Shown: positions 29,323-37,465 of the stretch, one piece after another
Numbering within the stretch: the first letter of the stretch is position 1
Layout of the letters: every line of letters starts with the position of its first letter
Assembly: GCA_005778355.1 (NCBI GenBank)
Contig: SXON01000245.1
Span: 1 to 42,860, forward strand
DNA: 42,860 bases
From: Pseudomonadota bacterium
GTDB taxonomy: Bacteria > Myxococcota_A > UBA796 > SXON01
Direction of reading: 5' to 3'
Program-made: the position numbers and the translations under genes
The notes under the pieces: model-generated
The model's database searches: none
Seen by the model: only the letters and a program-made list of their open reading frames with translations
Told to the model about the DNA's origin: nothing

Positions 29323-30993
29323 CTACTCTCCGCGTTCCTTGATGCGCTTGCTGAGGTCGCCCATGATGTCGCCGAACTTGGCGGAGCTGTCGCCCTGCTT
29401 GCGCAAGACCTCGCGCATGTCGCCGCCGCGGGCGCGGTCGATCGCCGACTTCTCCGAGAGCGACACCTTGCGGTCGTTCACGTCGATGTTGATGATCTCG
29501 GCGTTGATGCTCTCGCCTTCCTTGTAGTTGTTCTGCCACTCGCCGCCGCCGTTGGACAGCTCGCTGGTGTGGATCAGGCCCTCGACGCCGTCTTCGATCT
29601 CGACGAAGAGGCCGAAGTCCACCTTGTGAACGACCTTCCCGGCGATGACCTGGCCCAGGTAGTAGCGCGAGGCCACGCTCTTCCAGGGGTCGTCGTGGAG
29701 CTGCTTGATGCCGAGGCTGAAACGCTCGTTGTCGACGTCGACATTGAGCACCCGAGCCGTCACGTCGTCGCCCTTCTGGAACTTCTCAGACGGGTGCCGA
29801 ACGCGCTGGCCCCAGCTCATGTCGCTGACGTGCACGAGGCCGTCGATCCCGTCTTCGATGCCGATGAAGATGCCGAAGTCGGTGATGTTGCGCACCTTGC
29901 CGGTGACGACGGTACCGGGCGGGTACTTCTCGGAAGCGGCCTCCCAGGGGTTCTGCTCGAGCTGCCGCATGCCGAGGCTGATGCGACGGTTCTCGAGGTC
30001 GATGCCGAGCACCTTGGCCTCGACGATGTCGGCCACGTTGACCAGCTTGCTGGGCGACTTGACGCGACGGTTCCACGTCATCTCGCTGATGTGGACGAGG
30101 CCCTCGATGCCGTCTTCCAGCTCCACGAAGGCGCCGTACTCGGGGAGCGACACCACGCGGCCACGCACGATGGCGCCCACCGGGTACTTGTACTCGGCGT
30201 CTTCCCACGGGTCGGGCTTGATCTGCTTGTGGCCGAGGGACACGCGACCGGTTTCCTCGTCGTAGCGCAGGATCTTGACGTCGATCTGGGCGCCCACTTC
30301 GAAGAGCTCGTTGGGGTGCGTGATGCGACCGTAGGACATGTCGGTGATGTTCTTGATCGTGCCGAGCATGACCGCGCCGACGCGGAGGCTCTTCAGCGTC
30401 TCGTTCTTCTTCTCCTCGCGCTCACGCTCGAGCAGGACGCGACGAGAGAGCACGATGTTGCCGCGCTTCTTGTTGAACTTGATGATCTTGAACTCGTGCG
30501 TTTCCCCGATCAGCTTGTCGAGGTTCTTCACGGGGCGGAGGTCGACCTGCGAACCGGGGAGGAAGGCCTTCACGCCGATGTCGACGGCGAGGCCGCCCTT
30601 CACGCGCGAGGTGATGGTGCCCTTCACGGTCTCGTCGCGCTCGACAGCCTTGGAGATCTCCTCCCAGGCCTTCATCAAGTCGGCCTTCTCCTTGGAGAGT
30701 TCCAACAAGCCGTCTTCCTCGCCCATCTGGTCGAGGTACACGTCGATGCTGTCGCCCGGCTTGATGGTGAGCTCACCCTGCTCGTTGATGAACTCGGAGC
30801 GCTTGATGACGCCCTCGGCCTTGTAGCCCACGTCGACGGTGACGAACTCGTCGCCGATCTCGAGCACAGTTCCCTTGACGACACTCTGCTCCTTGACCGA
30901 CTTGTCGTTCAAGAAGTCGTTGAAGAAGGTCTCGAAGTCAGCGCGGTTGAGCTGGTCGAGGGGGGCGTCGAGGTCGATATCGGGCATGGGCAT
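29323..30993 (-). CDS. rpsA: 30S ribosomal protein S1
   Basis: A 556-residue protein with six S1 (OB-fold) repeats, the full bacterial S1 architecture. Repeat signatures include GDEFVTVDVGYKAEGVI, GGLAVDIGVKAFLPGSQVDLRP, YGAFVELEDGIEGLVHISEM, FGIFIGIEDGIDGLVHVSDM and FGLFVEIEDGVEGLIHTSEL. It binds mRNA at the ribosome and helps initiation on structured leaders. The start is ATG at 30993; a second in-frame ATG at 30987 is possible (MPMPDIDL). Upstream lie a 182-bp gap with a hairpin and the AAA+/RF2-like fusion gene in the same direction, so the two may be linked in translation quality control. Confidence 0.96.
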   Translation of the reverse strand: MPMPDIDLDAPLDQLNRADFETFFNDFLNDKSVKEQSVVKGTVLEIGDEFVTVDVGYKAEGVIKRSEFINEQGELTIKPGDSIDVYLDQMGEEDGLLELSKEKADLMKAWEEISKAVERDETVKGTITSRVKGGLAVDIGVKAFLPGSQVDLRPVKNLDKLIGETHEFKIIKFNKKRGNIVLSRRVLLEREREEKKNETLKSLRVGAVMLGTIKNITDMSYGRITHPNELFEVGAQIDVKILRYDEETGRVSLGHKQIKPDPWEDAEYKYPVGAIVRGRVVSLPEYGAFVELEDGIEGLVHISEMTWNRRVKSPSKLVNVADIVEAKVLGIDLENRRISLGMRQLEQNPWEAASEKYPPGTVVTGKVRNITDFGIFIGIEDGIDGLVHVSDMSWGQRVRHPSEKFQKGDDVTARVLNVDVDNERFSLGIKQLHDDPWKSVASRYYLGQVIAGKVVHKVDFGLFVEIEDGVEGLIHTSELSNGGGEWQNNYKEGESINAEIINIDVNDRKVSLSEKSAIDRARGGDMREVLRKQGDSSAKFGDIMGDLSKRIKERGE

Positions 30994-31121
30994 CAAAGGT
31001 AGAACTCGTGCGGGGGCCTCGGGGCCGCCGCGGTTGGGGTGACGGAGAGGAGGGTTCGTAGCGGTGAGTCGGCCCGGGATTGGGACAACGCCGCGGCGGG
31101 AGGCACGTCCTCTACGTGCTT

Positions 31122-31158
31122 GCGCCATCTCCACCCGGGGTGAACCACCGGATGGCGC
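31122..31158 (-). terminator. Hairpin between the AAA+/RF2-like gene and rpsA
   Basis: GCGCCATC (31122-31129) pairs with GATGGCGC (31151-31158) around a 21-nt loop that can fold further. It lies 17 bp beyond the AAA+ gene stop and about 130 bp before rpsA. It could be the terminator of the first gene or a leader structure for S1 autoregulation. No T-run follows. Confidence 0.4.
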
Positions 31159-31175: not shown

Positions 31176-33932
31176 TCACGACTTGTCAACCGACATTTCA
31201 TTGGCGCGTAGGTCCCACGCGCGGCGCAGCGGTTCCAGCGCGCCCTTCTTCAGCTCACGGGGCTGGACCACGTAGGCGCCCGTGCGCAGGTCTCGGACCG
31301 CGACGCCATCGAAGTAGTAGGCCCTAGCGGGCGCATGGTCGCTCACGATGGTCGGGCGAGAAGCTCCACGCGCCAGGCTCGCGCCAAGGAGCGAGAGCGT
31401 GGCACGGTCGGTGCCGACGAAAACACGGGTCTGCCCGGTGTGAGGCATGGTCACCGCGAGGCGGGCGCGGAGCGTTTCGACGTGCGTGCCCGAGGCGTGG
31501 CGCGCGTCGCTGACCGAGCCGCCGAAGTTCGACGGGCGGCGCGGCAAGACCTCAACCAGCAGACGGTCAGCCTCGCCCTCCTTCCGGCGACGACGGTGGA
31601 CGCCCGCCTCCATGGCGAGCAGGTTGGCCACTCCGGGCCCATCCACCTCGATGGCCACGCCCACCACGCGCTCCCCGTGTAGCTCCTCGGCCACCGCCTC
31701 GGGCGAGAGCCCCTGTCGCGACAGCCAGGCAAGCTCCAGGGCAAGCAGCTCCTGGAGCCAGCCCTCATCGACCAGGCCGGACACGTCGGCCGGCCCCAGG
31801 ACCACGAAGGCCCCGTCCTCGTCGCTGCCCTCGTCGAGGAGCTGCCAGCGTTGACGGGCAGCCTCGGCGTCGCGAAGCGTGGCGGCTACCCTTCCCGGAT
31901 CGGCCTCGCCCGGGAGCTTGTGGAGGGCCTGAAAGGAGGCCAGCAGGCGGGCGTCGGCGGCGATGCGTGCATCGAGCGCCCGGTAGCGGCTGAGGACGGT
32001 GTTGGCCGCCACCGGGTCGCTCCAGAAGCCGGGCCGTGCACTCTCCTCGAGCAGCGCCTGCGCCTCGCGCTTGCGGTCCTCGAAGGCCACCACCAGCGGT
32101 TGCCAACGCGCGATGGCGGCCACCACGTCGATGTCGGGCTCAGGCAGCGCCGGGGGCTCTGGCGCCGAGGCCACGACAAGCCGGCGCACGTCGATGCGGC
32201 CACCGCGGACACCCATCGCGAGCGTCTCCCCGTCGTGAACACGCTCGGCGACGATGAAGCCGGCGAGCGGTCCCACGAGGCTACGTTCAAGCTCTCGCCT
32301 CAGGAATCGCGCGCCGAAGTGGGGGTGGTAGCCATGCGCCACGAGCCAGTCGAGCACATCGGCATCCACCTCCACGCGGATCTCGCGGCTGGCAAGTCCC
32401 TCGCGGTCGGCGAGCGAGCGCAACTCACGCTGCGCGATCTGGCGAATCGTGGCCCGCGAGAGCGGGTGGAAGTGAACGATGCGGTCGAACCGGTTCAGGA
32501 ACTCGAACCGAAAAACGCCTTGCAGTCGACGGTCGAGCTCGCGGTCGAGCTTGGCGATGTCGCGCTCCTCGGCGAAGCCCACGCCCGTTTCGCGGTACAC
32601 CTCGGCGCCGGCGTTGCTGGTGGCGATGAGGATGAGGCTCCGCGCGCTCACCGTCTCCCCGGCGCCGTTGATGTAGCGCCCCTCGTCGATGAGCTGGAGC
32701 AGGCCGTCGTGCACCGAGGCGTGGGCCTTCTCGAGTTCGTCGAAGAGGAGCACGCCGAACGGTGCATTCCCGAGCCGCTTGGCGAGTTCACCCCGCTTGC
32801 CCTCGTAGCTCTGCGCCGAGGGGTGCCCAAAGAGCGCGGCGTGACTGGACTCAGCGGTAAAATCGCCAAGATTTATGCGAATCATCCTCGCGCGATCGCC
32901 GAAGAAGTACTCCGCGAGCAGCTGGGCGGTGTGGGTCTTGCCCACCCCGGTGGGGCCGACAAAGAGGAAGACGCCAAAAGGACGCCGAGGATCGGAGAGC
33001 CCTGCCTTGATGAGCGCGATCACCCGCACCACCGCGTCGACCGCTTCCTCCTGCCCGAGCAGGCGCTCGGCGACAAAGCGGCGGGAGGCCTCGAGATCGA
33101 GCTCGATGGCCGGGTCGATCAACGGGCGGGGGACACGCGTGCTCTGGGTGAAGCGCTCGAGCACCTCGTCCATGCCGACGGGCTTGCCACCCGGGAAGAC
33201 ATCGCGAGACTCCCGAAGCAGGTCGAGCGCCTTGCGCGGGAAATGCCGGTTGCCGATGAAGCGACCCGTGAGATCGATGGCGGCGCGCTGGGCCACCGGC
33301 GCGATGGCACGGCCCGTGCGCTGGCGCTGGTCTTCCGCCCACCCGGCCACGATCCGGCGCGTGGCCGCCGTGGAGGGCTCGTCGACCGGGATGGGGATCA
33401 ACCACTCCGCCAGCTCCGGCTCCGAGTCGAGGAGGCCCTGCAGGCCTCGTGTGTTGCCCTCGGCCAGGATGGGTCGACCGAGGCGCGAGCACAAACGAAC
33501 GAGGAGTGACTCCCAACTGTAAGGTTCAGCGAGGTGGATGTCGCGGATGAAGGGAACGATCGGCGTGGGCGCGGCGACCATGTGGTCGAAGATCTTCTGC
33601 ACGGTGCCCGCTGCGACCCAGGGCTTCGAGAACTGCGAGATGATGCCGCGGAAGCCGAGTTGCACCACGCGGCAGCCGTTGAACACTCGGGGCCCCCGGC
33701 CTGCCGCCACCGCCTGGACGATGGCGTGGACGATCACCGTCTTGCCCACCCCCGTGGGCCCCACCAGGACCGGCGAGCGGCTGCCCTCGGCGGCGAGCAC
33801 GTCGTCGACCTGCCGAATCACCTCGTCGAGCCCGAAGACCGGCGACAACTTGCCCTCGAGCGCGGCCGCGGTCAGGTCGTGCTCGATCCAGCTCTCGAAC
33901 TGGAAGGGCTTCTTCTTCTTGGTGGGGGGCAT
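31176..33932 (-). CDS. Clp-like double AAA+ ATPase fused to a GGQ-less release-factor-2-like domain
   Basis: A 918-residue protein. Two AAA+ domains: D1 with Walker A GPTGVGKT (58-65) and a degenerate Walker B FIRDIH (128-133); D2 with GPTGVGKT (326-333), LLFDELEKAH (Asp398, Glu399), sensor 1 at IATSNAG (Asn440), Arg finger Arg481 in FEFLNRFDR, and sensor 2 GAR (540-542), as in ClpA/ClpB D2. There is no Clp N-domain or M-domain. From ~617 to the end the protein follows RF2: PCRF-like helices (PGFWSDPVAANTVLSRYRAL), then VAIEVDGPGVANLLAMEAGVHR (759-780) and DLRTG (881-885) near the end. The catalytic GGQ loop is missing (ASGTHVET at 813-820), and the stop-codon-reading SPF is absent. It probably acts on ribosomes or nascent chains. 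rpsA follows in the same direction. Confidence 0.85.
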   Translation of the reverse strand: MPPTKKKKPFQFESWIEHDLTAAALEGKLSPVFGLDEVIRQVDDVLAAEGSRSPVLVGPTGVGKTVIVHAIVQAVAAGRGPRVFNGCRVVQLGFRGIISQFSKPWVAAGTVQKIFDHMVAAPTPIVPFIRDIHLAEPYSWESLLVRLCSRLGRPILAEGNTRGLQGLLDSEPELAEWLIPIPVDEPSTAATRRIVAGWAEDQRQRTGRAIAPVAQRAAIDLTGRFIGNRHFPRKALDLLRESRDVFPGGKPVGMDEVLERFTQSTRVPRPLIDPAIELDLEASRRFVAERLLGQEEAVDAVVRVIALIKAGLSDPRRPFGVFLFVGPTGVGKTHTAQLLAEYFFGDRARMIRINLGDFTAESSHAALFGHPSAQSYEGKRGELAKRLGNAPFGVLLFDELEKAHASVHDGLLQLIDEGRYINGAGETVSARSLILIATSNAGAEVYRETGVGFAEERDIAKLDRELDRRLQGVFRFEFLNRFDRIVHFHPLSRATIRQIAQRELRSLADREGLASREIRVEVDADVLDWLVAHGYHPHFGARFLRRELERSLVGPLAGFIVAERVHDGETLAMGVRGGRIDVRRLVVASAPEPPALPEPDIDVVAAIARWQPLVVAFEDRKREAQALLEESARPGFWSDPVAANTVLSRYRALDARIAADARLLASFQALHKLPGEADPGRVAATLRDAEAARQRWQLLDEGSDEDGAFVVLGPADVSGLVDEGWLQELLALELAWLSRQGLSPEAVAEELHGERVVGVAIEVDGPGVANLLAMEAGVHRRRRKEGEADRLLVEVLPRRPSNFGGSVSDARHASGTHVETLRARLAVTMPHTGQTRVFVGTDRATLSLLGASLARGASRPTIVSDHAPARAYYFDGVAVRDLRTGAYVVQPRELKKGALEPLRRAWDLRANEMSVDKS

Positions 33933-33979: not shown

Positions 33980-35296
33980 TCAGGTCGCGCGGCGCGTGTG
34001 TCCCATCGCGCCCCACATCGCGATGAAGCCACCGTAGCGGTCGTGTCGAGCCGCCAGGAGATCCCGCAGCTCCACCGGCCAGCTCTCGCCCACCAGCTCG
34101 ATGAGCTCGACCACGTGAATGTCCGGAAGAGCGTTGGCCTCGACCTTCGAGCGGAGCGACTGGAACACCCGCGTGACAACCTCCACGCGGCCTCCGGCAT
34201 GGCCACGGGCCCGGATTGCAAAGCGCAGGTTCCCCGAATCATCGTCGGTGCACACCAGGACGAACAGGCGTCCGTCCCCGCGGAGCATGGCCTGCAGCTC
34301 GGGCAGGAGCATGGGGTCACGCAGGTCGTGCAAGAGCGACCGGCCGTCCCATCCAGCGCGGTTGCGACACCACGGCGCCTCGCCCACCGCGTGCTCGGGC
34401 AGCCGCTTGTCCACGACCACCACCCGCCTCGGGCGTTCGTCACCTGTCCGCGCGGCCAGGGCGGTGAGCACAGCGGATCCGAAGCGGCCGTAGCCTACGA
34501 CCGCCACCACGTCCTCGTCCTCCAGGGCGGGGAGTCGCGAGCGCAGGAGCTGGTCGGCGGCCCAGGCGTAGCTGTTGAAACACTCCAGCCGTCCCCGGAA
34601 GCCCGGCGCGAGACTATTACGGACGTTCTCGATGATACCGGGGTCAAAGACCTGCGCCCACGCGGAAAGCCGATGCAGGCGACCGATGGAGTCGGCGAGG
34701 TGGAGCGCGAGCAAGGCGGCGTCGAGGTTGATGATCTCGTTCCCCGTCACGGCGAGAACGTGGCGCGCGTGCTGGGCCCCCGCTCGCCGCAGCGCGCCGT
34801 CGTCACTGCCGTCGCCCACGATCACCGGAACCCCCTTGCGGCGCATCTCCACCACGCCCTCCGCGTCGGCATCCCTCTCGATGGCCACGACGCGCGCCCC
34901 ATTGTCCATGAGCCGTCGACACAGGTGCTGCCCGAGGCGCCCCAGCCCCACCACCACGACGTGATCACGGGCGCCGATTCCCAGCCGGAAGAAGACCGTG
35001 GGCAGGTGAAACAGGCCGAGTACGTGCACCACCTCGGCCACGACGCCCAAGGTGAGGATCGGCGCGGCGAAACGGAGGGCCCAGAGCGTCGCGTACCAGC
35101 CCCCGCCGAGGGCGTTGCCGAGCGCCGGGTCGGCATCGAGGACGAAGGTACGAACCGTCTCGTAGGCCGCGTGTGGCAGGCGCAAACCGACAACCAGCAG
35201 GTTGACCAGCAAAAGGGCGAGCGCCACGGCGCTGACGGAAAACACCAGCGTGTGCCGACGCTCCCTGCGGGGCAGCGACACCAGGAGTGGGGACAT
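33980..35296 (-). CDS. TrkA-N (RCK) protein with two NAD-binding domains and membrane anchor
   Basis: A 438-residue protein. Hydrophobic segments at about 15-40 and 68-96 precede two Rossmann/TrkA-N domains, each with a dinucleotide loop: GLGRLG (117-122) and GYGRFG (268-273). The pairing of two RCK domains is typical of K+ transport regulators and of ligand-gated K+ channel-like proteins. I see no TVGYG selectivity filter, so it is not a complete K+ channel by itself. It may regulate a partner channel, or the N-terminal helices may be a degenerate pore. It follows the polysaccharide gene by 15 bp, with TAAGCT 6 nt before the ATG. Confidence 0.8.
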   Translation of the reverse strand: MSPLLVSLPRRERRHTLVFSVSAVALALLLVNLLVVGLRLPHAAYETVRTFVLDADPALGNALGGGWYATLWALRFAAPILTLGVVAEVVHVLGLFHLPTVFFRLGIGARDHVVVVGLGRLGQHLCRRLMDNGARVVAIERDADAEGVVEMRRKGVPVIVGDGSDDGALRRAGAQHARHVLAVTGNEIINLDAALLALHLADSIGRLHRLSAWAQVFDPGIIENVRNSLAPGFRGRLECFNSYAWAADQLLRSRLPALEDEDVVAVVGYGRFGSAVLTALAARTGDERPRRVVVVDKRLPEHAVGEAPWCRNRAGWDGRSLLHDLRDPMLLPELQAMLRGDGRLFVLVCTDDDSGNLRFAIRARGHAGGRVEVVTRVFQSLRSKVEANALPDIHVVELIELVGESWPVELRDLLAARHDRYGGFIAMWGAMGHTRRAT

Positions 35297-35308: not shown

Positions 35309-35317
35309 GCGCTAAGC
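35304..35317. promoter_or_regulatory. Perfect 14-bp palindrome GCTTAGCGCTAAGC
   Basis: A perfect palindrome spans the stop codon of the polysaccharide gene (TAG at 35314-35312) and the -10-like hexamer of the TrkA-N gene. It could be an operator on that promoter, or a coincidence of the stop and the hexamer. Confidence 0.35.
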
Positions 35318-37465
35318 CGCGATGCGCTTCCGGCGCCGGAGGTCGGCCACCACTTTCGAGGTCGCGACGAGTCCCTGGTCGAGCAGCTGGTCCATGAAAG
35401 AGCGCCACGCCGCGTCGTTGTCGGGCTGGACCATGACTCCGGTTTCTGGGTCGTTCACCTCGACGTCCACGCCGAGAGCATCGAGGTTTTCCTGGACGTC
35501 CACCCGCGTGGGGTCGAGGTCGAAGGCGCGGAGCAAGGCCTCGCGGGCATTGTCGTCGCGACCCACCGCGTGCCAGAGCGTGCCGAGGTCGCTCCACGCC
35601 CGCGCGGCCCAGGGCAACTCACGCACCTGGGCCACGGCAGCGCGAAGCGCCTCGGGCATGTGCCCTACGAGCAGCTCGGCCTCGATGCGCTGGGGGCCCG
35701 CATCGGTGGCACCGGCCCGGCACACGAACACCCAGTGGTGCGCGAGCCGCGTGAGGCGCTCGGGCGCATGCTGCACCAGGCCGTCGAGTTCGAGTTCGGT
35801 CATTCGCTCCTCGCTGACACTCGGCGCCGGGCCGTAGCCGACCGACGTGGCCGCCACGCGCTGCACGCGGAGCCCCGCCTCGCGCAGCATCAACGCGAAG
35901 TCGTCGGGTCGGGCCTCGAGTGTCCAAGTGGGATGCCGCGAGCCGTGGTTCACCGCCCGCGAGAAATGCGCGAGATTGAACAGCGTGAGCACAGCGAGGC
36001 CACCTTCCCGCAGACAGCCACGAACCTTGGCGAGCGTGGCCACGAGATCCTCCACGTACTCGAGCCCGCCCGAGGCCACGACCACGTCGTAGGTTCGGGT
36101 GGGTTGCCAGTCGTCGATGGTCCCCGTCTCTACGCGGAAACGCTGGTCGCGCGTCGCCACGCTGGGAGCGATGTCGAGCCCGTGGTAGTCGTACGCGGGC
36201 CCGAGCATGCGACCGAGTAATCCCGTGGAACAACCAAGGTCGAGCACCGCACCGCCCCCCTCGCCCACCACGATGTCGGCCACCTGCCGCAATCGGCGGT
36301 GGGCGAGGTCGAAGCGCCAGGTCTCGCCGTCCCAGCCCTTCTCCCCGCGTCGGACGGCGCGGTGGCGCTCCGGGCGGGCCCCCGAGGCCACGGCGAGGAG
36401 GCCCTCCATGTCCTCGCGAGCCGCGGCCTTCATCGTGGCGACCTGTCGCGACACCTCGGCGGCGAGCACGGCGCGATGGTCCCAGGCCTCCATGAGGATC
36501 TCGGTGAGCCCCGCGGGCGCCTCGATGCCCACCACCTCGGTGGTGCAGCCGAGCTGGCGCATCCACTCGTAGGTCTTCTGCTCGTAGGCCACGCCCACGG
36601 CCGGCACACCGGCCGTCGTGGCGAAGATGAGCGAGTGCATGCGCGTGCCGAGGAAAAAGTCACACGCCCCGCACTCCCCGCGAAGGGTGGCAAAGTCGAG
36701 GTCGGCGGTCTCCACCACCTCGGCGTCACGTGCCATCAACGCCGCGACCCGGCGCGCCGCCACGCGGTCGTCCTGGCGGTAGCCGCCGTAGTTCGTGCAG
36801 TTCGACAAGAACCGAACCGAGCCCCCGGTGTGTAGGCAGAACGCGTCGCAGGCCTCGGCCACGGCGCGCTCGTACTGTTCCTGCAGCGCCGCCGCGTCGC
36901 CCTGCCCGGGAAAGTGCCAGTTTCTCACCGTCACTCCGAGCACGGGGCCGGCGCCTCTGGGCACCTTCCGGGCCCTGCCGAGCACCGCCGCGTCGACGCC
37001 CTGTCGCATCGGCGCGCTCACCCCGAGCTCGCGCACCACCCGTGCGCTCGCCTCGTCGCGTACACAGATCCACGCGGCCCCGTCGAGCACCTCGCGGGTG
37101 GCTTGTCTCGAGAGGGGCGAGACGAAGGGGCCGATGCTCTGCCCGAAGATGACATACGGGACACCGGCGCGCCGAGCGAGATGAAAGGTCGCGAGACGGG
37201 GGTTCAGGTTGGGGGCGTAAAGATCGTGAAGGAATGAGCCCCCGCAGGAAACGACGAGGTCGGAACGGGCGATGGCGCCGGCCACGCCCACCAGATCGCG
37301 ATCGTCGAGCGCGGGGACACCGTGGAAGTGGCGTGCGACCTCGGGGAAATGAGACACCACGTCGACGCTCGCGCCACCCTGGCGAAGGCCCGAGATCATG
37401 GCGTCGAGGATGGCCGCGTCGCCACGGTTGCTGGAGCAGAACGAGTCGGTGATCAGGACCTTCAT
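35312..37465 (-). CDS. Polysaccharide pyruvyl transferase fused to a methyltransferase and a TPR-like tail
   Basis: A 717-residue protein. Residues 1-360 form a polysaccharide pyruvyl transferase domain (CsaB/PssK-like; PF04230 type): GDAAILDAMISGLRQGG, VVSCGGSFLHDLY, VIFGQSIGPF and the C-terminal FLGTRMHSLIFATTAGVPAVGVAYEQK. Residues ~375-585 are a SAM-dependent methyltransferase with motif I AVLDLGCSTGLLG (406-418) and motif II YDVVVASGGLEYVED. Residues ~613-665 resemble a TPR (ALRAAVAQVRELPWAARAWSDLG). Such enzymes add pyruvate ketals and methyl groups to surface sugars. The start ATG has an AGGAG Shine-Dalgarno sequence 6 nt upstream and follows the glycosyltransferase gene by 8 bp, so it is the second gene of that operon. 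Confidence 0.85.
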   Translation of the reverse strand: MKVLITDSFCSSNRGDAAILDAMISGLRQGGASVDVVSHFPEVARHFHGVPALDDRDLVGVAGAIARSDLVVSCGGSFLHDLYAPNLNPRLATFHLARRAGVPYVIFGQSIGPFVSPLSRQATREVLDGAAWICVRDEASARVVRELGVSAPMRQGVDAAVLGRARKVPRGAGPVLGVTVRNWHFPGQGDAAALQEQYERAVAEACDAFCLHTGGSVRFLSNCTNYGGYRQDDRVAARRVAALMARDAEVVETADLDFATLRGECGACDFFLGTRMHSLIFATTAGVPAVGVAYEQKTYEWMRQLGCTTEVVGIEAPAGLTEILMEAWDHRAVLAAEVSRQVATMKAAAREDMEGLLAVASGARPERHRAVRRGEKGWDGETWRFDLAHRRLRQVADIVVGEGGGAVLDLGCSTGLLGRMLGPAYDYHGLDIAPSVATRDQRFRVETGTIDDWQPTRTYDVVVASGGLEYVEDLVATLAKVRGCLREGGLAVLTLFNLAHFSRAVNHGSRHPTWTLEARPDDFALMLREAGLRVQRVAATSVGYGPAPSVSEERMTELELDGLVQHAPERLTRLAHHWVFVCRAGATDAGPQRIEAELLVGHMPEALRAAVAQVRELPWAARAWSDLGTLWHAVGRDDNAREALLRAFDLDPTRVDVQENLDALGVDVEVNDPETGVMVQPDNDAAWRSFMDQLLDQGLVATSKVVADLRRRKRIAA

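Follow-up and report, generated by a model that had tools for sequence, protein, structure and literature searches.

A gene on the minus strand of contig SXON01000245.1 (GenBank assembly GCA_005778355.1), from a bacterium recorded as Pseudomonadota and placed by GTDB in Myxococcota_A, encodes a protein of 918 amino acids in which two Clp-type AAA+ modules are followed by approximately 310 residues derived from release factor 2 (RF2), without the stop-codon-reading SPF and peptide-releasing GGQ motifs. The stretch analysed comprises 42,860 nucleotides and is termed the window; the gene starts with ATG, occupies positions 31176 to 33932 and, in common with every other feature located here in the window, lies on the minus strand. 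The same architecture is repeated in 31 further intact frames, and the fusion family spans Myxococcota, Planctomycetota and Chloroflexota, as the records are labelled. An initial annotation, made from the letters of the window alone, had described the two modules and the RF2-derived C-terminus, and this description is borne out by Pfam, phmmer, hhalign and Foldseek.

The 32 intact frames with this order of parts, counting that of the window, comprise 24 close relatives (type I), seven proteins with the same body and different N-termini (type II, including a Chloroflexi protein at locus L089) and a single Chloroflexota outlier (type III, G1095). Pfam matches to HEAT repeats occur at the N-termini of both planctomycete type II members that were scanned.

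Origin of the C-terminal domain

The relationship to RF2 covers residues 600 to 913 approximately (positions 31194 to 32135) and is detected by phmmer, hhalign, NCBIfam and the comparison of an AlphaFold model using Foldseek. With the last 294 amino acids as query, 21 of the 23 phmmer matches in the PDB at E ≤ 1 are RF2, the best with an E-value of 4.7e-4. The only NCBIfam match to the C-terminal piece at E ≤ 0.01 is prfB, the RF2 family (E 6.8e-7, 28.6 bits against a cut-off of 370 bits). The prfB score exceeds that of prfA in seven of seven fusion pieces tested, and the outlier G1095 reaches 151 bits against prfB over nearly the full length. The same genome as the window also carries a canonical RF2 (L161), which scores 480 bits against prfB and matches both the PCRF and RF-1 families of Pfam.

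Of these two Pfam families, both of which the initial annotation proposed for checking the C-terminal region, PCRF is borderline in the window protein and RF-1 is absent. PCRF homology extends over residues 622 to 783 (positions 31584 to 32069) and scores 20.2 bits (E 5.6e-4) in the full-length protein and 23.0 bits (7.8e-5) with the C-terminal piece alone, the latter still slightly under the Pfam cut-off of 24 bits. It rises above the cut-off in all seven other fusions tested. RF-1 (PF00472) gives no match in the window piece at E ≤ 0.01 or in those seven fusions at E ≤ 0.001, whereas two canonical RF2 controls match both families. Profile-profile comparison also supports the assignment. An alignment of 19 fusion C-termini against nine canonical RF2 sequences with hhalign gives a probability of 99.25 (E 5.4e-20) over 304 columns, and the type II sequences with that of L089 give 99.92 (E 1e-34) against RF2.

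An AlphaFold model calculated from eight sequences of the C-terminal part has a mean predicted local distance difference test score (pLDDT) of 75 and a predicted template modelling score of 0.68; the five models span 56 to 75. All 50 of the listed Foldseek matches to this model, from 758 at E ≤ 10, are release factors (best E 2.1e-12). They are of RF1, RF2, mtRF1 or PrfH type, and none of these 50 has the aeRF1 fold.

The initial annotation had noted that SGTHVE stands where RF2 has GGQHVN, and our alignment agrees; the remnant of the GGQ loop, ASGTHVE, is formed by residues 813 to 819 (positions 31476 to 31496). None of the 32 fusions retains GGQ at the catalytic position and none has an SPF or SPY pattern in the last 330 residues. 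The only GGQ string in that stretch, in G021, falls just ahead of its E-x-G-x-H motif; others are further upstream, outside the GGQ region.

Several other features of RF2 are retained. The order of domains I, II and IV is unchanged. All 32 fusions have an FW-like pair near the start of the domain, and in 30 it is exactly FW; within a narrower stretch 31 were counted. Using loose patterns, E-x-G-x-H is kept in all 32, represented in the window protein by EAGVHR at residues 775 to 780 (positions 31593 to 31610), and D-x-R/K-T/S in 30; the corresponding domain IV motif of the window protein aligned to RF2 is ARAYYFDGVAVRDLRTG, residues 869 to 885 (positions 31278 to 31328). We counted RF2-invariant columns as kept when at least half of the members conserve them, with an approximate division into domains of our own. 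In type I (19 rows) two of seven are kept in domain I, 11 of 39 in domain II, three of 29 in domain III and eight of 20 in domain IV; the values for type II (seven rows) are two of seven, 12 of 39, three of 29 and 10 of 20, respectively. In the Chloroflexi fusion L089:2689-6204 domain III is wholly missing and domains I, II and IV remain. The initial annotation had called the RF2-like domain complete. It overlooked that the GGQ domain is eroded, as the lack of an RF-1 match indicates, and that in this one relative it has gone altogether.

The ratio of nonsynonymous to synonymous substitution rates (dN/dS) for three close pairs of fusions is 0.109, 0.131 and 0.168 in the RF2-like part, compared with 0.024, 0.024 and 0.047 in the second nucleotide-binding domain (NBD2). 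On these values the RF2-like part is constrained, though less so than the NBD2 motor.

The ATPase modules

The first 600 residues match ClpB, ClpC and ClpA, with 54 distinct PDB sequences at E ≤ 1e-10 by phmmer, and the NCBIfam ClpA model matches residues 18 to 571 as a single stretch. Among the 25 of 43 Pfam families listed for the window protein are AAA_2 (residues 317 to 484, E 6e-34) and ClpB_D2-small (residues 491 to 571, E 3e-15). As a yardstick for the ATPase motifs we used 67 other Clp proteins obtained by scanning genome contigs for two AAA motifs.

The first module, NBD1, comprises residues 19 to 265 approximately (positions 33138 to 33878). Its Walker A motif, GPTGVGKT at residues 58 to 65 (positions 33738 to 33761), is present in 31 of the 32 fusions. 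The Walker B motif is degenerate; in IVPFIRDIH, residues 125 to 133 (positions 33534 to 33560), Asp131 is followed by isoleucine and the acidic DE pair is lost. This pair is absent from NBD1 in every fusion, and present in 66 of 67 reference proteins. NBD2 with its small domain spans residues 286 to 580 approximately (positions 32193 to 33077) and is recognised by Pfam and phmmer. In all 32 fusions the catalytic set is intact, namely Walker A (residues 326 to 333, positions 32934 to 32957), Walker B with its DE (residues 394 to 399, positions 32736 to 32753), the arginine finger (Asn480-Arg481, positions 32490 to 32495) and sensor 2.

The pore loops are altered. The region of the NBD2 pore loop, ALFGHPSAQSYEGKRG at residues 366 to 381 (positions 32790 to 32837), is without GYVG, and no fusion has a motif of this type in contrast to 65 of the 67 references. 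An aromatic residue of any kind occurs in this stretch in 10 of 24 type I, two of seven type II and one of one type III proteins. The [YF]-x-G pore motif of NBD1 is found in seven of seven type II proteins and 64 of 67 references and is absent from the single type III protein; in type I the pattern is matched in three of 24, as LGFRG, which we judge not to be at the pore position. The Walker B glutamate is needed for ATP hydrolysis, the pore aromatic for gripping substrate. Since NBD1 lacks the former and NBD2 the GYVG motif, the unfoldase activity that the initial annotation ascribed to the protein is not established.

A loop that the initial annotation overlooked, together with the losses from NBD1 and NBD2, is that associated with ClpP. 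All 32 fusions have a hydrophobic-G-F motif in the stretch from sensor 1 to the arginine finger, and G-F or G-Y occurs there in 64 of the 67 references. In the window protein the motif is VGF, residues 451 to 453 (positions 32574 to 32582), which aligns with LGF of ClpC1 in PDB entry 9if4, at the position of the LGF/VGF loop by which ClpC docks on ClpP; the motif is absent from this position in ClpB (1qvr). The loop sits in a low-confidence part of the full-length model, with pLDDT below 50 at residues 449 to 454. It is this loop, docking ClpP, that distinguishes ClpC from ClpB (PMC10149685). On the basis of its conservation we predict that members of the fusion family dock on ClpP. Of the 32 fusion genomes 30 were tested for a ClpP gene, which was found in 28; the two misses are assemblies that are 88% and 77% complete.

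The fusion proteins are Clp/Hsp100 ATPases which, judged by their sequences, are distinct from ClpB, ClpC and RF2, the defining features of those families being in part absent. A Clp N-terminal domain could not be accommodated ahead of NBD1, which starts near residue 19 in an open frame of 922 amino acids, and Clp_N is not among the 25 of 43 Pfam families listed for the window protein. In common with ClpC and ClpA the protein has two AAA+ modules, the intact NBD2 catalytic set and the hydrophobic-G-F loop at the ClpP-docking position; it differs in lacking the N-terminal domain, the NBD1 Walker B glutamate and the NBD2 GYVG, and in the addition of the RF2-like domain. ClpB/Hsp104 provides the top PDB match both by sequence (1qvr) and by fold (6qs6), yet an insertion of the size of the M-domain is absent, with approximately 41 residues between the matched stretches compared to about 164 in 1qvr, and the LGF-type loop, absent from ClpB (PMC10149685), is present in the fusion. 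Scores fall below the NCBIfam equivalog cut-offs for ClpB (306 bits against 1232) and ClpA (259 against 993). ClpI is another class outside ClpB and ClpC, but its motifs for ATPase activity and unfolding are intact, and the term 'release factor' does not occur in the text of the paper describing it (PMC10149685). Two other odd Clp proteins, L138:6810-9299 and L158:6939-9713, have neither a GYVG pore loop nor an LGF-type loop.

Distribution and evolution

The scan of genome contigs by two AAA motifs, from which the best 80 loci were kept, is not a census. Amongst these loci the named records carrying fusions are Myxococcus sp., Archangium sp., Myxococcaceae metagenome-assembled genomes, Phycisphaerales and Chloroflexi, and a Desulfobacteraceae copy (L088) is frameshifted. 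When the C-terminal part was used as query, the fusion was detected in the order and class of the window. In the phylum of the window 22 of 377 sampled genomes have it, 19 intact and full-length; the copy in G046 is broken, that in G039 is truncated and that in G051 is degenerate. A threshold of E 1e-25 was passed by 14 of 392 genomes in the phylum of the Phycisphaerales record, of which eight have fusions (the seed genome included) and six a canonical RF2 with GGQ. Four of 251 genomes in the phylum of the Chloroflexi record passed at E 1e-52. Two of these are fusions, in the seed genome and G1095, and the remaining matches, in frames of 355 and 626 amino acids, were left out of the count. In the phylum of the Desulfobacteraceae record the four that passed, of 247, are the frameshifted copy and three canonical RF2 proteins. 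Of the 2285 plasmid records that match, none carries 80% of the fusion protein in one place.

The motif counts leave out G051, G046 (broken), G039 (contig end), G382 (frameshifted) and L173/G354. The last of these, a twenty-third match from the search of the window's phylum, was rejected as a fusion, since its long read-through frame holds a canonical RF2 that retains GGQ. The G046 copy, from the same genus as the window (L042:8428-10227), is broken into several frames next to a full-length rpsA, and is a pseudogene or reflects assembly errors. A further fusion, L160:5028-8996, has approximately 395 extra N-terminal residues in an open frame; this candidate extension, with an uncertain start, has no Pfam match.

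A tree of the AAA part places the 32 fusions, a protein from Gimesia and two Bacteroidota proteins apart from the 67 references with a support of 99, and the fusions with the Gimesia protein at 85. The tree was calculated by a quick method with support from the Shimodaira-Hasegawa-like approximate likelihood ratio test, and several long branches are flagged, the Bacteroidota pair among them. In the tree of the RF2 part a single branch with a support of 100/100 splits 27 RF2-like domains from 25 canonical RF2 rows (24 different). These topologies are compatible with a single origin, and the Clp-RF2 fusion may have arisen once.

The two Bacteroidota Clp proteins that adjoin the fusions in the AAA tree, L108:7353-10655 and L135:7281-10553, are without GYVG and the NBD1 Walker B DE, and have C-terminal extensions finishing in an RF2-like DLRTG or DLRSG stretch. 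They were rejected as RF2 fusions. Comparison of their C-termini to RF2 and the fusions with hhalign gives probabilities of 0.2 and 1.1, neither PCRF nor RF-1 matches either protein, and there is no RF2 among the four phmmer matches of L135. Without a significant match to RF2 we do not count Bacteroidota as fusion-bearing. A two-row profile search of 247 sampled Bacteroidota genomes returned the query genome only.

Gene neighbourhood

Downstream of the fusion gene, on the same strand, is rpsA, encoding ribosomal protein S1 (positions 29323 to 31134, with six stretches matched to Pfam S1), as the initial annotation had it. The adjacency holds within the family to which the window belongs, in nine of nine loci with that side visible, the broken copy included, but not elsewhere. 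Outside this family an S1-like open reading frame occurs at one of 27 loci, where it is 32% identical and 5.4 kb away; several of the 27 are short contigs. Being confined to one family, the adjacency may be plain vertical synteny. A Pfam scan of 20 neighbours at other loci revealed no common theme and recognised no hibernation or defence genes. The gene directly upstream of the fusion (positions 33980 to 35296) encodes a TrkA-N protein with two NAD-binding stretches matched. Two genes upstream (positions 35312 to 37465) is a protein of 717 amino acids combining a polysaccharide pyruvyl transferase, a methyltransferase and a weakly TPR-like end.

Functional considerations

What might such a protein do? 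We favour a Clp-type family that would dock on ClpP and be powered by NBD2, with the dead RF2 module recruiting it, most likely to ribosomes, and assign this interpretation a probability of approximately 40%. Six subunits would form a ring on ClpP, with NBD1 as a static, ATP-bound ring and NBD2 as the sole motor. The RF2 domains would serve as the recruiting module, most likely binding the factor or A site of the ribosome. The joint between the two parts, at the N-terminus of RF2 domain I, would presumably face solvent beside that site. The ring would then be brought to ribosome-bound clients, which might be stalled nascent chains, factors or subunits, and these could be remodelled by the ring or passed to ClpP. 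With no GYVG grip in NBD2, the ring may pull on or rearrange its clients instead of threading them in the classical way.

Precedents are available. Balon binds to the A site even though it has neither GGQ nor a motif for reading stop codons (PMC10901736). Pelota/Dom34 is a catalytically dead homologue of a release factor that acts in the A site and Vms1, a protein of release-factor fold, is paired with the AAA+ chaperone CDC48 (PMC6514570). RF2 itself, together with ArfA or BrfA, acts on ribosomes without its SPF motif but still needs GGQ (PMC8012679).

A number of observations weigh against this interpretation. Most of the RF2-invariant residues of domains II and III have gone, so that contacts to the ribosome may be lost, and the docking on stalled ribosomes suggested by the initial annotation is not established. 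Ribosome binding is a tentative proposal that draws on sequence and precedent. The lost pore-loop motif speaks against ordinary unfolding, although the ClpP loop is kept. The TM-scores to release factors, normalised to the query in Foldseek, are low (0.22 to 0.36, with root-mean-square deviations of 12 to 26 Å), which reflects either a different arrangement of the domains or a poor prediction of it. For three pairs that have diverged further, dN/dS is 0.165, 0.222 and 0.362 for the RF2-like part (dS 1.0 to 1.2) and 0.116, 0.094 and 0.153 for NBD2. The copy in G051 (L049:1262-3901), although still an open frame, has lost both the Walker motifs of NBD2 and the G-F loop, and its RF2 part is decayed at the start. 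No conserved adjoining translation gene was seen outside the family of the window. Finally, the Gimesia protein (L085:3706-5808) has the AAA part of the fusion, at 43% identity, and no RF2-like domain. It is nested inside type I and so looks like a case of secondary loss of the RF2 part.

Much of this would suit a protein that works away from the ribosome. The RF2 domain may have been re-used as a rigid helical and beta scaffold, providing a substrate receptor, an adaptor-binding module or a ring-assembly module for a ClpP-partner ATPase in the manner of the variable N-terminal domains of ClpA, ClpC and ClpX. We regard this as tentative too, and nearly as good an explanation as recruitment to the ribosome. 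It would account for the loss of the ribosome-reading motifs together with most invariant residues of domains II and III, for the absence of domain III from L089, for an RF2-like domain that evolves faster than NBD2 (dN/dS of about 0.11 to 0.17 against 0.02 to 0.05 in the three close pairs), for a linkage to translation genes seen in one family only and for the Gimesia protein. It accounts less readily for retention of the domain order I-II-IV and of the E-x-G-x-H and D-x-R/K-T/S motifs in 32 and 30 of the 32 fusions, or for the outlier G1095, the prfB score of which, along nearly the full length, indicates that RF2-like geometry has been kept for long.

A role in hibernation or shut-down of ribosomes is unlikely. 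The dead RF2 domain would plug the A site as Balon does, likewise lacking the two motifs (PMC10901736), and the ATPase would load or remove this plug with ClpP an accessory. The S1 gene adjoining the fusion in the family of the window fits such a role; the 20 neighbours scanned with Pfam include no hibernation gene, and binding to the ribosome has to be supposed just as in the interpretation we favour. A defence or conflict protein that senses damage to translation is less likely again, and improbable. The distribution is patchy and an ADP-ribosylglycohydrolase is a neighbour at one locus, but no defence genes were recognised amongst those 20 neighbours, and the nine PADLOC matches all fall on the AAA part, where we judge them to be generic, with none for the RF2-like part. 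An assembly chimera or a frameshift joining two genes, which could be suspected as most named sources are metagenome-assembled, the G046 copy is in several frames and that of Desulfobacteraceae has a frameshift, is refuted by the 32 intact frames in records labelled as at least three phyla, the purifying selection and the grouping of both halves in trees; an architecture shared by 31 other intact frames, and not dispersed as separate unrelated genes, is due to neither chance nor a mis-join.

Relation to known systems and implications

The initial annotation knew of no named family with this architecture and we found none; nor did literature searches, which reached few subscription papers, yield a description of a Clp-RF2 fusion. 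RF2 shares with the C-terminal part the domain order I-II-IV, the FW-like and E-x-G-x-H motifs and D-x-R-T in domain IV. The fusion differs in the absence of SPF, GGQ and Pfam RF-1, in being joined to an ATPase and in coexisting with the normal RF2 (L161) of the same genome. Balon and Pelota/Dom34 are likewise release-factor homologues, active in the A site despite lacking the catalytic motif or its glutamine, but belong to the aeRF1 family, a fold family distinct from RF2, and the available text of the sources mentions no AAA+ ring part (PMC10901736, PMC6514570). Vms1 with CDC48 resembles the fusion in pairing a release-factor-like protein with an AAA+ chaperone (PMC6514570); these are separate proteins, of aeRF1 type, and eukaryotic.

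A further prospect, which we consider less likely than not, is a bacterial ribosome-directed Clp machine in Myxococcota, Planctomycetota and Chloroflexota, as the records are labelled. This would be a ClpP-docked AAA+ ring that probes the A site by means of a dead release factor built into it, the one-protein counterpart of the quality-control pairs formed by release-factor-like and AAA+ proteins.

The link between translation arrest and Clp proteolysis is known mainly via tags, those of transfer-messenger RNA and poly-alanine. If the RF2 module docks on ribosomes then the fusion would constitute a dedicated physical link between the two processes in bacteria. Even if it is not ribosome-bound, this is a Clp-type family with an unusual ATPase layout, in which NBD1 lacks the Walker B glutamate, the NBD2 motor is without the standard grip and the ClpP loop is kept, and it provides a rare example of a release factor that has become a non-catalytic module. 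That distantly related bacteria share the joined gene points to a hitherto unstudied machine, possibly one acting at the ribosome.

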